Positions 5,816 through 22,250 of a DNA stretch of 64,000 nucleotides are shown piece after piece (positions within the stretch are counted from its first letter, which is position 1; every line of letters starts with the position of its first letter). A program made the position numbers and the translations under genes. Origin of the DNA: Pegea sp. RAD2-039 (taxonomy: Eukaryota; Chordata; Thaliacea; Salpida; Salpidae); contig JAQGEQ010000263.1 of assembly GCA_034620365.1 (NCBI GenBank), forward strand, positions 1,178,001-1,242,000, written 5' to 3'. Under the pieces are notes generated by a model that ran no database searches, was not told the DNA's origin, and saw nothing but the letters and a program-made list of their open reading frames with translations.

Positions 5816-5899
5816 TTAGTTGGATCAACCTTTTTGTAACTCAATCTATTCTGGATGCAAAGGACTTTCAAGACTTATTATTCTGTTTTTCTTAACATT

Positions 5900-7860
5900 T
5901 TCAACTTTAATGTATATAATACAAACTAAAACAGACCCTTCCATCATATTTCTGTACAAAGATCTTTGTATAGTTTACAAAAAATATATTTCTAATTTCT
6001 ATTTGGAAAGAGAAAGTGCAGTTTTATCTTCACCTTGCAAGAAAACGTTTTTTGGTTTCATAAATCGCAAGCTTAAGGCCAGATCTCAAATACCTCCCCT
6101 AATTGATAACAGCGACCAGCTTGTGATGGAAACAGAAAATAAAGCTGAATTGATAAACAATCAATTTAATAGCGTTTTTATAACCGATGATGGCAATACT
6201 CCTCTCTCCTACTCCGACATTCTTACAAATGTCTCTGAGATGGTAGATCTTGACATAACGGTCAATATGGTATCTAAGGCTATTTCTTCTTTAAAATCGT
6301 CAGTTTCCAATACCCCAGATCAGATCCCATCATATATACCATCTAATATCTGATGTCCAGCATAGCTTTGTGAAACGGAGATCTTCCCTGACTCAACATC
6401 TCACTTTTCTTAATGAGCTTACGGCCCATTATGAAAGTAACACTCCCTGTGACATCATATATCTCGATTTTGTTAAAGCGTTTGATTCTATCCCACACAC
6501 TAAGCTCGTTACTGTATTGAAAAACTTAAAAATCAACAGCTTTACCTTACAGTGGATTGAAGATTACCTATCAGGTAGAACCCAACAAACTCGTGTAGAA
6601 AGATCTTTATCTACTTCTAGTCAAATCACTAGTGGTGTTCCTCAGGGTTCTGTTCTGGGTCCCCTTTTCTTTTTAATTTTCATCGAAGACTTCATCAGAA
6701 GATTAGTAGCAGTAGATGATGTCAGAGTGTTTGTGTATGCAGATGATATCAAGCTATTATCTTGAAATCCTTCAAAACTTCAAACTGCACTACACACTGT
6801 AGAAAACTGGTCTACAAATTGGCAGCTCAGAATCCAGCTCACAAAGTCTGAACTTAGAACTCTTTCTCGTAAACTAGCTTTAAATTGCTTGAACCAATAC
6901 TCTATCAATAGATTTATTATTCAACTAGTATCTTCGGTCCTAGACCTTGGCATTACTCTACCATCTGACTTTAAATGGTGCAGTTATGTTTCCAAAATCT
7001 TTGGAAAATCAATCAACCTTGTCTTCCTTATTATACAGACATTTAATTCTAAGGACCCATGCTTTTTTATCAATCTTTTCAAATTGCACGTACGTCCAAT
7101 TCTTGAATACAATGTCAGTGTATGAATGCCATATCAAGTTAGTGATATCAAAAAAATCGAATCTGTTCAGGCCACATTTACAAGATTAGTATGTAGGAAA
7201 CTTAATATTAAATATGATAGTTATAAGCATCGTCTCAGTTTCTTCAATTTACATACTTTGGAAATCCGACGGATTAAATACGACTTAATTCTTATTTTTA
7301 AAATTATCCACAATTTAATTGATATTCAACTTGGTGATTTCTTTTCTATTAGTCCTTCCTTCAAGTTATATCAGCTCAGACGACACACATTACACCTTAA
7401 TAAGCCTATATCACCTAGTACATTGGTCAGAGCAAATTTTTTTTCATACCGTACAATTAATACATGGAATCAGCTGCCATCAGACATTGCCATGTCGAAG
7501 TCACTCGCATTGTTCAAGCAGAAGTTGAACCGTCATAGTATTGCTAACATTGTCATTTCTAAACTGTGATTTTTTTTCTCTTTCTTATATTATTAACTTT
7601 CCATGTAATTGTTCACTGTTATATGCTTTGAGTGATATCGAAATACCATGTGTTACATCTTTTACTTTCTATATTTTTGGCTAAATAGATGTTATTTGTA
7701 AAAATGTGTGTTACCAAGAGGTGCTCTTTTCAGGTACCCTCCTTCGCATTTATTGAAATAAGTAAATAGATAAATAATAGGTATTGTTTGTTAAAATGTG
7801 TGTTACCGAGAGGTGCTCACCTTCACATTTATTGTAATAAATAAGTTTAACAGAAAGTTG
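5900..7860 (+). mobile_element. Degenerate non-LTR retrotransposon (LINE, CR1/Jockey-like), copy 1
   Basis: This is a broken LINE coding region. The part before the reverse transcriptase (about 5990-6350) reads SSPCKKTFFGFINRKLKARS and continues into the RT N-terminal region. The palm domain (about 6370-6765) shows IIYLDFVKAFDSIPH, SGVPQGSVLGPLFF and YADDIKLL, the standard RT A, B and C blocks. The thumb and C-terminal part (about 6890-7570) continue across stops and frame changes and end at the TGA at 7567-7569. A 3' tail follows with a GTGTGTTACC-AAGAGGTGCTC element and AAATAAGTAAATAGATAAA-like repeats. Compared with the copy at 11.25-12.68 kb, about 230 bp is missing near 6335, removing the RT fingers. 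The endonuclease is absent, so the copy is dead. The clade assignment is my inference from the RT motifs. Confidence 0.9.
7690..7855 (+). repeat. Duplicated LINE 3' tail
   Basis: Two successive versions of the LINE 3' end occur, at about 7697-7775 and 7790-7855. Each has AATGTGTGTTACC, then GAGGTGCTC, a CTTCACATTTATT-like segment and an AATAA-rich tail. The second lacks part of the middle. This could be a tandem tail duplication or the tail of a second, nearly fully truncated insertion. Confidence 0.65.
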
Positions 7861-11030: not shown

Positions 11031-14000
11031 ATGGCTTATCAGGAACTAGAAAGATTATGCCAACGTAAGCGTTGGGAACTAACAAAGAATGGACCCTCAT
11101 CTTCAGGACCATCACATAAACCTATCTTTACTTGTTCAATTGAAGTACAAGATGAATCTACAAGTATTTTTCTTTTATTTTTACAAAAAAAATATATAAA
11201 TAAAAGTATGCAGTTATGAAAAAAACTTTAATTCTATAAAACTAATTTTACTGAACACACTGACATCATCTACTGCTACTAGTCTTCTGATGAGGTCTTC
11301 AATGAAAATTAAAAAGAGAAGAGGACTCAGAAAAGAACCTTGAGGGACACCACTGGTGACTTGACTAAGAGTAGATAAAAATCTTTCAACACGAGTTTGT
11401 TGGATGATAAGTAATCTTGATAAGTAATCTTCAATTCACTTTAAGATAAAGCTGCTGATTTTTAAGTTTTATAAAACAATAATGAGCTTGTTGCGTGGGA
11501 CAGAATCAAACGCCTTAGCAAAATCGAGATATATGATGTCACAGGGAGTGTTACTTTCATAATGGGCTGTAAGCTCATTAAGAAAAGTGAGATGTTGAGT
11601 CAGGGAAGATCTCCGTTTCACAAAGCCATACTGGACATCAGATATTAGATGGTGCTCCATCAAATGACTGGTCATATGATTGTGAATGATATGCTCTTGA
11701 GTTCTGCAGATAACTGAAGTCAGCGAAACTGGTCTGTAGTTAAGTGAAGTGTTTCTGGGACCCTTTGTATGAATTGGAGCAATAATAGCTTTCTTCCAAA
11801 TTTTTGGAACTCTTCCTCGCCTCAGAGTGATGTTAAAGAGTAGCGATGAAGGTAGTAATAAAGAGGAAGTAGTTTTTCTTAAACTAAAAGCTGGGATCTG
11901 ATCTGGGGTATTGGAAACTGATGATTTTAAAGAAGAAATAACCTTAAATACCATATCGACCGTTATGTCAAGATATATCATCTCAGAGACATTTGTAATA
12001 ATGTCAGAGTAGGAGAGAGGAGTATTGCCATCATCGTTTATAAAAACGCTATTAAATTGATTATTTACCAACTCAGCTTTATTATTTGGTTCCATGACAA
12101 GCTGGTCGCTATTATCAATTAGGGGAGGTATTTGAGATCTGGCCTTAAGCTTGCGATTTGTGAAATCAAAAAACGTTTTCTTGCTAGGTGAATATAAAAC
12201 TGCACTTTCTCTTCCTAAATAGAAATAGAAATAGATTTATTGTAAACTTTACCAAGATATTTGTACAGAGATTTGATGGAAGGGTCTGTTTTAGTTTGTT
12301 TGTATAGGAGGTTTTCAAATGTGGTGAATTCCTTAAGTATTTGGATAAATGTGGTTTCTTGTTGACAGGATAAAAAAGCATAAATTTTTCGATTGACTCT
12401 TTAACGATGTTATTAAATGTTGAGTAAGTAGTATTGATGTCTTCGGAAGAGTTTAAAACAGAAATCCAGTCAACATCTGATAGAAACTTATTTATACCAT
12501 TATAATTTCCACGATAAAAATTCTGTTTGCTTGAAGTTTTAACGTTCATGGAAAAAGTTTGATGGAGCTTGAATTCAATCATGTTGTGATGGCATGTCGG
12601 AGCAAAAGGTTCTTTTTGATCAACGTAGATAATGCTCTCAGAATTTGATATGATTCCTACAATGTTTTTATTTGTGCGTGTTTTTAACTAGTCAAACAAG
12701 TATTTAAATTCAAATAAATTTGTATGCCTTTAAAATAATATACAATTTATTTTTAAATTTGTCAGCAAAATTATGAACTTCCTTCTACCGATGTAATAGC
12801 CAATATTTGCAAACATTAAAACTGTTTTTCAAATTAAAATATAGCTCCACTTGTAAATGTAAACAACAAAACTAGTTAATTTACATTTACGAGTCAAAGT
12901 ACAAATTTTTCAGTTTTGTACCAGACTACCAAGAAAGCAAGTAAAAAGAGCCAAGCAGAAAAAGATGCTGTAGCAGGAATACTTGAACAAATCGACCCAA
13001 GCCTCTACATTCTACACACGAACAACTTTAATGAGCTCAAACATTTTTACCCTCTTTTAATAAAAGAAGATATTAAGTACGAATTCGTTAAGAAAGGTAG
13101 CGAGCACGAACCAGTAAGTACAAAATAATATTTCATTTGTGGTTGTTAGATATTATGAAGCTACTTGCCTAACATTTGGATTGAAATTGTATTGTAAGAA
13201 GCTAAGTGTGACTTAAATTAGACTTATTACATTTAGTAACGAATTAAGAAAATTATTTACAATTACAAATAGTTATAGGTTGCTAGAAAAAGTTTTATAT
13301 TTTAATTATTAAACTAAATGATTTAAATTATTTATCAATCTTGAACGATTATTTTTATTTTTATTCTATTTTTCTATCACGATTATTTACGTCCTCCTAA
13401 TAGCTAGATTTGATAGTAAAGATAATTTGTAATTGATTTTTCTCACATCACTAAATTGCTTATCAGGAATTCCATGCTAAAGCTTCTATTGAAGTAGAAG
13501 GCAAAAAATTTGAATCAAATGGTACAGGACAAAATAAAGCGGCTGCAAAAAAATCTGCAGAAGCAAACATAGTCTTAAGTCTAAAAAATTCGATCAATGA
13601 AAAGAATGAACAGTTGTACATGAAAGAAGCAACAAAATCTCCAATAGAAAACGTAAGATATATAAAGAAAAAAATTATATTGGAAAAAGTAAATATAAAT
13701 GTTAAACAGAATGATAAACAAGAAATAAATCGGTACCGTACACCTTCATATAAGGAAGGCCGTGTGGGAAAAGGCTCATATGGTCATGTTCATGTTTGTG
13801 TTGATGAAAGAAATCCCTCAAAATATTTAGCCGTCAAAATCCCACCGGGTGAGGCAGATGAAGAAGATGCCAACATGTTAGTAAGCCAGCTCAGTAGTAT
13901 ATGCGACTGGTTATAAGATAGTGTCATTTTTTTAGCATAAAATGAACACTTTTGAACATTGTTTTTTGATTAAATAGATGTAAATATTTTGCAGATTTAA

Positions 14001-14835
14001 ACGCGAAATGGAGTTTCTAGCAAAGCATACAAAAAGTGATTTTGTAGTTAACTTTCATGGAGCATTACATTTTGAAGATAGAATAGGGTTTCTTATGGAT
14101 TATTATCCGGCTGGAACGCTTAAAAAAATAATTTATTCTAAAAAAATGTATCCTTCACTGATATATAAAGTTTTCAAACGTTTAGCAGAAGGGATTCAAT
14201 ATCTTCACAAGTTGGATGGTCGGAAACGAATCACTCATAATGACATAAAGCCAGATAATATTCTTCTCTCAAACAAATTCGAGCCACTTCTTTGTGATTT
14301 TGGAGGTTCGACTCATGCCACAAAAACCAGCATTAGATCAAGTGGTGACCATCCAAAAGACGGAGCTTTGGACACAAGTTTTTATCGAGGGCCAGAATTT
14401 CCTGCAATGAAAGACTACCTTCGCTCAACTACACATGATGTATATTGCTTTGGTGTTAGTCTTTTTGAAGCTATATCAAAAGGATTTGATTCAAAACTCA
14501 CAGACCAAAAACGCTTTTGTGAATTGTACAAATTCCACCAAAGAAAACTATTTCAAAATTATCGTAGACATCTTAAAGATCTAGAAGATGAAAAACAATA
14601 TGAAGAAGCAGATTTACTCTATGATTTTGAAAAGTTTGTTCATGACTTATGTCAAAAAGATCCCGAAAAAAGACCAAAGATACAAGAAGTGTTTGAAAAA
14701 ATAGAAAAAATACCCACTGGTTGTATTGAAAGTAATCAGTGTGAAAATGAACTAAAGAAAGATTTTCGTCGTTTTAAATATGATGAAAGTTGGGTTCCGT
14801 TAAATGATATTTGGCAAGAAATTCGAAAGCTATAA
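11031..14835 (+). CDS. dsRNA-binding protein kinase with two dsRBDs (PKR-like architecture)
   Basis: Four exons join in frame: 11031-11163, 12914-13113, 13467-13876 and 13995-14835 (527 residues). The ATG is preceded by an in-frame TAA at 11022-11024. dsRBD1 (about residues 1-73) starts YQELERLCQRKRWELT, continues as FTCSIEVQ and ends in a basic TKKASKKSQAEKDA helix. dsRBD2 (about 85-155) has EFHAKASIEVEGKKFES and NKAAAKKSAEANI. The kinase domain (about 205-480) shows GKGSYGHV, the AVKI lysine, a helix-C glutamate in FKREMEFL, HNDIKPDNILL, CDFGG and YRGPEF. The catalytic lysine, aspartates and asparagine are therefore present, but the usual HRD arginine is Asn. By family knowledge such a protein binds long dsRNA and phosphorylates a target on dimerisation. 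The length is close to PKR (about 550), but the kinase lacks clear eIF2alpha-kinase hallmarks such as the HRDLKPSN form of the catalytic loop. The substrate is unknown and the architecture may have arisen independently. Confidence 0.88.
11240..12680 (-). mobile_element. LINE copy 2, antisense in intron 1 of the dsRBD kinase gene
   Basis: Read on the minus strand, this holds the end of an apurinic endonuclease domain (HHNMIEFKL, about 12600-12570), a linker, and the RT N-terminal and palm regions. Visible motifs include NYRPVSLTSVICR, QYGFVKRRSSLTQ and IIYLDFAKAFDSVPR. The SGVPQGS and YADD regions continue to about 11250 with stops and frame changes. It is the same family as the copy at 5.9-7.86 kb and keeps the approximately 230 bp that copy lost, but lacks the 3' third and the tail. 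Frameshifts near 12180 and 11468 make it non-functional. The whole fragment lies in the 1.75-kb intron that splits dsRBD1. Confidence 0.88.
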
Positions 14836-21659: not shown

Positions 21660-22250
21660 CAAATTTACTTATTACAATAAATGCGAAAGAGGGTGCCTGA
21701 AAAGAGCACCTCTCGCTAACACACATTCTCGCAAATAACATCTATTAAGTTAGAAATATAGAAAGTAAAAGATGTAACACATGGCATTTCGATATCACTC
21801 AAAGCATATAACAGTGAACAATTACATGGAATGTTAATAATATAAGAAAGAGAAAAAAAATCACAGTTTAGAAATGACAATGTTGTCAATATTATAACGG
21901 TTCAACTTCTGCTTGAACAACGCGAGTGATTCTGACATGACAATGTCTGATGGCATCTGGTTCCATGTACTAATTATGCAGTATGAGAAAAAACTCAATC
22001 TGATTAATGTACCAGGTGATATAGGCTTATTTAGATGTAATGTGTGTCGTCTGAGTTGGTATAACTTGAGAGAAGGACTAATAAAAAAGAAATCATCATA
22101 CTGAAGGTCAATTAAATTGTGGATAGTTTTAAAAATAAGAATTAAGTCGTATTTAATTTGTCGAATTTCAAAAGTATCTAAATTGAAGAAGCTGAGACGA
22201 TGTTTATGACTATCGTATTTAATATTAAGTTTCCTGCAAATAATCTAAAA
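21660..22250 (-). mobile_element. LINE 3'-end fragment between the two prolidase genes
   Basis: Read on the minus strand, this matches about 7190-7770 of LINE copy 1: the C-terminal RT region with GTTTCTTCAATTT-type wording, the TCTAAACTGTGATTTTTTT end, and the tail GTGTGTTA-GCGAGAGGTGCTC followed by an AATAAGTAAATTT end. It is 5'-truncated. It lies in the roughly 1.6-kb spacer between the paralogues, so it inserted after or around their duplication. Confidence 0.85.

Follow-up and report, generated by a model that had tools for sequence, protein, structure and literature searches.

The closest described counterpart of the system considered here is PKR (EIF2AK2; 551 amino acids in humans), which displays two N-terminal double-stranded RNA-binding domains (dsRBDs), a linker and a kinase domain. 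dsRBDs contact RNA via a GPxH loop and a KKxAK helix (motifs also seen in the PKR entry 1qu6), and RNA-templated clustering followed by trans-phosphorylation is well established for PKR. We found a gene of the same domain order in the salp Pegea sp. RAD2-039, at positions 11031..14835 of the forward strand of a 64,000-nucleotide stretch of contig JAQGEQ010000263.1 (hereafter the window, which lies on contig C32 of the searched genome of 105.7 Mb in 387 contigs). This gene, hereafter the candidate (a name also used for its protein and its kinase), is predicted to code for 527 amino acids, and we judge it probable from its sequence that the product is a sensor of double-stranded RNA (dsRNA), built like PKR but with a kinase domain that is very remote from that of PKR or unrelated to it. 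Its likeness to PKR is thus probably due to a similar RNA alarm having been invented independently. If so, an invertebrate combines the PKR layout with a different kinase, which would make the coupling of dsRNA to phosphorylation a repeated solution, and a PKR-independent dsRNA signaling pathway would have to be sought in animals that are usually thought to rely on RNA interference (RNAi).

Other described systems share part of this layout. The fish kinase PKZ, like the candidate, joins nucleic-acid-binding domains to a stress kinase, but these are Z-alpha domains linked to a PKR-type kinase (available portion of PMC7137213). EIF2AK2 itself is treated as an invention of chordates; it is reported from chordates only, with an origin at the bony fish (PMC5851622). 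The statement of an earlier sequence-only reading of the window that PKR is known from vertebrates needs a caveat, as a gene called PKR has also been reported in an invertebrate, the Pacific oyster Crassostrea gigas; the accessible text assigns it to the ‘Other’ kinase group and associates its over-expression with the poly I:C-induced antiviral response (PMC4883820). The oyster gene is known here by this description rather than by its sequence or domain layout, and because of it we rate the novelty of the candidate as moderate. Among the matches listed in the open-access literature, no title or abstract opening describes a kinase with dsRBDs that falls outside the eIF2-alpha kinases, which does not amount to absence from print.

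Gene structure and the dsRBD-kinase fusion

Four exons, joined in phase via GT-AG introns, give 527 codons and a stop in an unbroken frame. The joins are predicted from genomic DNA, and the locus is composed as follows:

11031..11163, forward strand: exon 1, with the ATG and the first part of dsRBD1 (helix 1 and the GPSHKPIF loop)
11164..12913, forward strand: intron 1 (GT-AG), which holds an antisense reverse transcriptase remnant
11472..12236, reverse strand: the reverse transcriptase remnant in intron 1 (RVT_1, 38.7 bits), a mobile element outside the protein
12914..13113, forward strand: exon 2, with the remainder of dsRBD1 (TKKASK, start of helix 2) and the beginning of dsRBD2
13114..13466, forward strand: intron 2 (GTAAGT...CAG)
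13467..13876, forward strand: exon 3, with the remainder of dsRBD2, the linker and the start of the kinase N-lobe (GKGSYGHV glycine loop and AVK lysine) in a single open frame
13877..13994, forward strand: intron 3 (GTTAGT...CAG)
13995..14835, forward strand: exon 4, with the remainder of the kinase (KREME of helix C, HNDIKPDN, DFGG, YRGPE and KRP), the C-terminal tail and the stop

The splice donors read GTATTT, GTAAGT and GTTAGT, and the acceptors TTTCAG, TATCAG and TTGCAG. The start codon is supported by an in-frame TAA, the third codon 5′ of the ATG at 11031. The G+C content by codon position (0.48/0.31/0.23) is coding-like, with the exons at 33-38%, introns 2 and 3 and the non-retroelement part of intron 1 at 22-29%, and the window at 27.6% (mean of 32 bins). 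The weakest junction is that between exons 3 and 4, where a donor has to be chosen for intron 3; by our own reading of the sequence it is GTTAGT, because GTAAGC, four bases on, would give an in-frame stop at the exon 4 acceptor. We take the candidate to be a real, well-formed gene. The sequence-only reading had claimed two dsRBDs and a complete kinase, joined through four in-phase exons with a supported start codon, in an architecture and size like those of PKR; the GT-AG joins, the upstream TAA, the profile scores given below, the placement of the dsRBDs N-terminal to the kinase and the length of 527 residues against 551 all bear this out.

Pfam profiles recover, in the whole protein, Pkinase (121 bits, E 6.4e-35, residues 208-482) and dsrm in two stretches (46.7 bits). 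Separate searches with dsrm (PF00035; curated cut-off 23 bits) gave 35.3 bits for dsRBD1 and 24.0 bits for dsRBD2. The sequence-only reading had proposed such a profile search and named a lack of score in both N-terminal segments as the outcome that would speak against it; both segments score, as does the kinase. The dsRBD2 match (approximately residues 95-141) crosses the border between exons 2 and 3, the latter starting at residue 112, and the Pkinase match starts within exon 3, with the C-terminal portion of dsRBD2, some 50 linker residues and, of the kinase, the glycine loop and catalytic lysine all within the open frame 13455-13916. Because both matches enter the one open frame of exon 3, the fusion of dsRBDs and kinase does not depend on the splice prediction and is likely to be real. 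Exon 2, for its part, joins the end of dsRBD1 to the start of dsRBD2.

dsRBD1 features a GPxHxPxF-type loop (GPSHKPIF), and its helix 2 opens with TKKASK, the KKASK of which resembles the KKEAK of PKR dsRBD1 (GPPHDRRF and SKKEAK in human PKR, 1qu6). dsRBD2 features the loop GSEHEPEF and the helix start NKAAAK (KAAAK), from which the middle lysine is absent, as it is from PKR dsRBD2 (TKQEAK, i.e., KQEAK); this shared absence is suggestive and is not evidence of kinship. Residues 1-201, compared with the PDB, have 24 matching sequences. ADAR2, DRB4, ILF3 and TARBP2 come first, Loquacious and further dsRBD proteins of RNA processing are also included, and PKR chains are absent from the 24. For dsRBD2 alone, 16 of the 17 PDB matches at E ≤10 are dsRBD proteins (best ADAR2, E 8e-5), the remaining one being a fluorescent protein (E 1.3).

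A search of the genome with the protein (82 of 104 candidate matches scored) returned 75 matches, four of which are the candidate's own exons. None of the other 71 begins before query residue 181, which places them all within the kinase or beside it, and the gene therefore appears to be single-copy. No dsRBD was detected at E ≤1 in 34 other kinase loci of the genome (L012-L045, some overlapping; flanks of about 1.5 kb, six frames; best E 2.6). The test is weak, since dsRBDs are interrupted by introns; a Pfam dsrm scan of the genome likewise missed the candidate's own intron-split dsRBDs. Elsewhere in the genome, a dsRBD gene lies at four places (L003-L006; C12, C31 and C260), three of them with identical translated pieces and one at a contig end, and a 213-residue open frame (L007, C103) apparently contains two diverged dsRBDs (TKKSSEH and SKKASKVQA), with no kinase seen in that frame.

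Three reverse transcriptase pieces in the window, judged by eye to be of a single element family, lie at 5820-7569 (forward strand), 11472-12687 (reverse) and 21861-22244 (reverse), two of the three with an RVT_1 match. Read-through of the antisense element in intron 1 could yield dsRNA with other copies of this family.

The kinase domain and its affinities

The kinase retains the catalytic lysine (AVK), the helix C glutamate (KREME), the catalytic aspartate and asparagine (HNDIKPDN) and the DFG motif (DFGG), and it should be active, as all catalytic residues are present. Its HND motif makes it a non-RD kinase; PKR has HRD, and its T-loop ends in YMSPEQ where the candidate has YRGPEF. Identity with PKR amounts to 25% over 207 aligned residues. 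Against the PDB the kinase matched 1428 sequences at E ≤0.001, the best 60 of which include STK24/MST3, MST4, STK25, RIPK2, RIPK4 and Aurora A and no eIF2-alpha kinase. In a control search with the kinase domain of PKR, chains of PERK, GCN2 and HRI occupied ranks 6-19 (12 of the 14 rows so named, two with a generic kinase name), right after five PKR rows and ahead of NEK1 and others. In a local panel of 18 reference kinases and 28 kinases of the same genome, BLAST gave 77 bits each for MST3 and the salp's own L012, followed by RIPK2 (67), Aurora A (66), PKR (55), BRAF (52), IRAK4 (49), GCN2 (45) and PERK (40), and phmmer ranked another salp kinase first (L022, 74 bits), then MST3 (63) and RIPK2 (62), with PKR at 32.

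Two features of eIF2-alpha kinases are missing from the candidate. No insert separates beta 4 from beta 5, and IGFLMDYY stands where an LFIQMEF-type motif would be. Counted by hand on the alignment from the catalytic lysine, which we take to be K296 of PKR, the positions of the PKR dimer triad D289/Y293/Y323 read P/L/F. Those that contact eIF2-alpha in PKR (T451, T/S487 and E490) read T, S and T, so that two of the three are retained, but MST3 has the same two letters at T451/T487. In the available portion of PMC2291453, the kinase insert and the LFIQMEF-type motif are named as features of eIF2-alpha kinases and D289, Y293 and Y323 as the dimer triad of PKR, D289 and Y293 being themselves not invariant; most of the residues that it names for PKR, the triad and E490 among them, are not retained by the candidate.

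The genome also codes for separate PERK-like, GCN2-like and HRI-like kinases. Pieces of the PERK-like locus (L091) are 43-59% identical to human PERK, and those of the GCN2-like locus (L090) 39-58% identical to yeast GCN2, piece values that are not strictly comparable with the 25% between the candidate and PKR. Some 2 kb upstream of the GCN2-like kinase pieces, and in their orientation, lies a partial RWD match (E 2e-4). A further open reading frame (ORF; L038) falls in the eIF2-alpha kinase clade in the first of the trees described next and is HRI-like by elimination; in the second it pairs with PERK (support 89/83).

Three kinase trees were computed and constrained placements compared by the approximately unbiased (AU) test. 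Tree 1 had 47 rows, after removal of three that represent the same genes as other rows (L034, L040 and L045) and of ORFs below 240 residues (L021, L031 and L041). For trees 2 and 3, 15 further rows were dropped as long or redundant; tree 2 (38 rows) included MEK1, PAK1 and four of 39 bacterial kinases, and tree 3 (42 rows) eight of the 39, with the HNDIKPDN octamer masked and bact_L074 dropped for branch length. In tree 1 the candidate groups with MST3 and L012 (95/92), the latter pairing with MEK1 in tree 2, and the eIF2-alpha kinases and WEE1 form a clade without the candidate (99/97). In tree 2 it moves beside three bacterial kinases that have the same octamer, a placement that carries a long-branch warning, and in tree 3 it is back among the eukaryotic kinases on a weak split (51/91) and remains unplaced. 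TKL rows group apart from it in trees 1 and 2.

Sisterhood of the candidate and PKR alone was rejected in set 1 (AU p 0.006) and set 2 (p 0.0075). The other constraints gave, in set 1, p 0.37 for eIF2-alpha kinases together with WEE1, 0.10 for RIPK and 0.09 for TKL and Src; in set 2, 0.36 for RIPK and 0.59 for STE, with a likelihood above that of the free tree; and in set 3, 0.33 for STE. For the eIF2-alpha kinases as a whole, p fell from 0.27 in set 1 through 0.066 in set 2 to 0.038 in set 3. Membership in this family is thus disfavored and not firmly excluded, and the trees assign the candidate kinase to no other family, RIPK, for example, being neither supported nor rejected. As for the two origins which the sequence-only reading had offered, convergent assembly fits better, and an older origin of PKR fits less well, given the rejected sisterhood and the 25% identity with PKR against the 39-59% retained by pieces of the PERK-like and GCN2-like genes.

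Homologue searches returned 39 kinase loci from prokaryote contigs and a single short kinase match from viral contigs. The HNDIKPDN octamer, itself one of the search patterns, occurs in 19 of the 20 loci inspected (19 of the 39 prokaryote loci and the viral one). A bacterial origin of the candidate kinase is a possibility that we do not claim, because masking the octamer returned it, weakly, to the eukaryotic side.

Proposed mechanism and competing explanations

We posit that the two N-terminal dsRBDs would bind one long dsRNA of viral, transposon or other origin, that the chains bound to it would bring at least two kinase domains together in an RNA-templated cluster, and that the clustered kinases would phosphorylate first one another and subsequently a target. 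Most simply, the candidate would work by such clustering and trans-phosphorylation as PKR does, with a dimer contact geometry that may differ because it does not keep the dimer residues of PKR, and it might serve in defense against viruses or transposons. Its substrate is probably not eIF2-alpha engaged via the docking mode of PKR; eIF2-alpha as such is a possible substrate that we do not favor. As a tentative extension, which we hold to be possible rather than probable, animals may have evolved a dsRNA-activated kinase twice, the second one arising outside the eIF2-alpha kinases from two dsRBDs and a non-RD kinase, with a substrate other than eIF2-alpha, and operating alongside RNAi.

Several points weigh against a PKR-like sensor whose kinase is unrelated to that of PKR or very remote from it. 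The placement of the kinase is weak because it forms a long branch, and the AU test does not reject its membership in the eIF2-alpha kinases in sets 1 and 2. PKR outscores BRAF and IRAK4 in the BLAST panel and is not the lowest of that panel. The sequences of the reference kinases other than PKR may contain small errors, which leaves the rows from the salp genome unaffected. dsRBD2 is a single bit above the dsrm cut-off and is short of one contact lysine, and the exon 3 piece, searched alone with Pfam, scores for neither dsrm nor Pkinase, as both domains are cut there. Finally, the candidate was examined in one species.

The last of the Pfam results, the derivation of the model from genomic sequence alone and the retroelement in intron 1 would suit a gene-model artefact in which two separate genes, one with the dsRBDs and one with the kinase, were joined; this is highly improbable, since parts of both dsRBDs share exon 2 and the dsRBD2 match extends into the same open frame of exon 3 in which the kinase match begins. 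Quite unlikely, too, is a true PKR or eIF2-alpha kinase that diverged strongly, i.e., an ancient dsRBD-eIF2-alpha kinase gene in which the architecture was retained and the kinase domain evolved far from its relatives. It would account for the shared domain order and similar size, the KxxAK pattern of dsRBD2, the threonine and serine at the Thr451 and Thr487 positions and the AU values of sets 1 and 2, including that with WEE1. It conflicts with the rejected PKR sisterhood, the rejection of the eIF2-alpha kinase clade in set 3, the missing insert and LFIQMEF-type motif, the P/L/F triad and the replacement of E490 by threonine. Moreover, the salp's own PERK-like and GCN2-like genes have not drifted off in this way, and because these and the HRI-like kinase are still recognizable, extreme divergence of a fourth eIF2-alpha kinase is less likely.

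A special case of the PKR-like sensor on a foreign kinase is that a RIPK-like or TKL-like non-RD kinase gained the dsRBDs, with dsRNA feeding into signaling of an inflammatory or cell-death style instead of translation arrest. HND can be compared with the HKD of RIPK1 and the HHD of RIPK2; RIPK2 and RIPK4 are near the top of the PDB sequence matches, and the AU test does not reject a grouping with RIPK in set 1 or set 2. A fold model of exon 4 (279 residues, without the glycine-loop strands; 22 prokaryote homologues; mean predicted local distance difference test score, pLDDT, 75.5; predicted template modeling score, pTM, 0.75) was also searched against the PDB. Among the best 50 of at least 2000 matches, RIPK2 came first (E 2e-10) and RIPK3 had the highest template modeling (TM) score (0.66), and none was named as an eIF2-alpha kinase; this evidence is weak because the N-lobe is incomplete, the strands of exon 3 being outside the model, and the same 50 include RIPK4, FGFR, ACVR1, RET, KIT, STK10 and PAK3. 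The partner domains of RIP kinases are CARD, death-domain, RHIM or ankyrin modules, unlike the dsRBDs of the candidate, and no death, CARD, ankyrin or other adaptor domain is among the eight Pfam families of the search with the candidate protein (a short RHIM motif would escape it). With the candidate outside the RIPK clade in the best trees, beside MST3 and a MEK-like kinase in tree 1 and apart from the TKL rows in trees 1 and 2, we regard a RIPK-like origin as unlikely. We give a little more room, still on the unlikely side, to a housekeeping kinase that is anchored to structured RNA of the cell (e.g., in RNA localization or translation control) rather than a sensor of foreign RNA, for which the ADAR, DRB4, ILF3, TARBP2, Loquacious and other RNA-processing matches of the N-terminal half speak; nothing specific stands against it, and a single-copy gene suits either role.

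Other kinases and genes of the genome

In the same genome, 27 Wnt matches were found, which mark it as that of an animal, and its size is too small to be a vertebrate's. An innexin search returned no match, though by a method that cannot show absence, and neither a primer (up to 2 mismatches) nor a guide sequence (up to 3) from papers on Brachionus matched the genome. A cluster of kinase ORFs lies at C265:340909-381476 (L017, L018, L020, L024, L025, L028, L030 and L032), with lengths of 430-463 residues, no internal stop and several near-identical members. One of them (L024) is without the HxDxKxxN motif and two others read HQD, and with relatives on C14 and C264 the cluster looks like a lineage-specific kinase expansion. 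An Aurora-like kinase (L015) displays a long N-terminal tract of GPxNxKTGP-type repeats, and in tree 1 another two Aurora-like kinases (L013 and L036) fall together with Aurora A.

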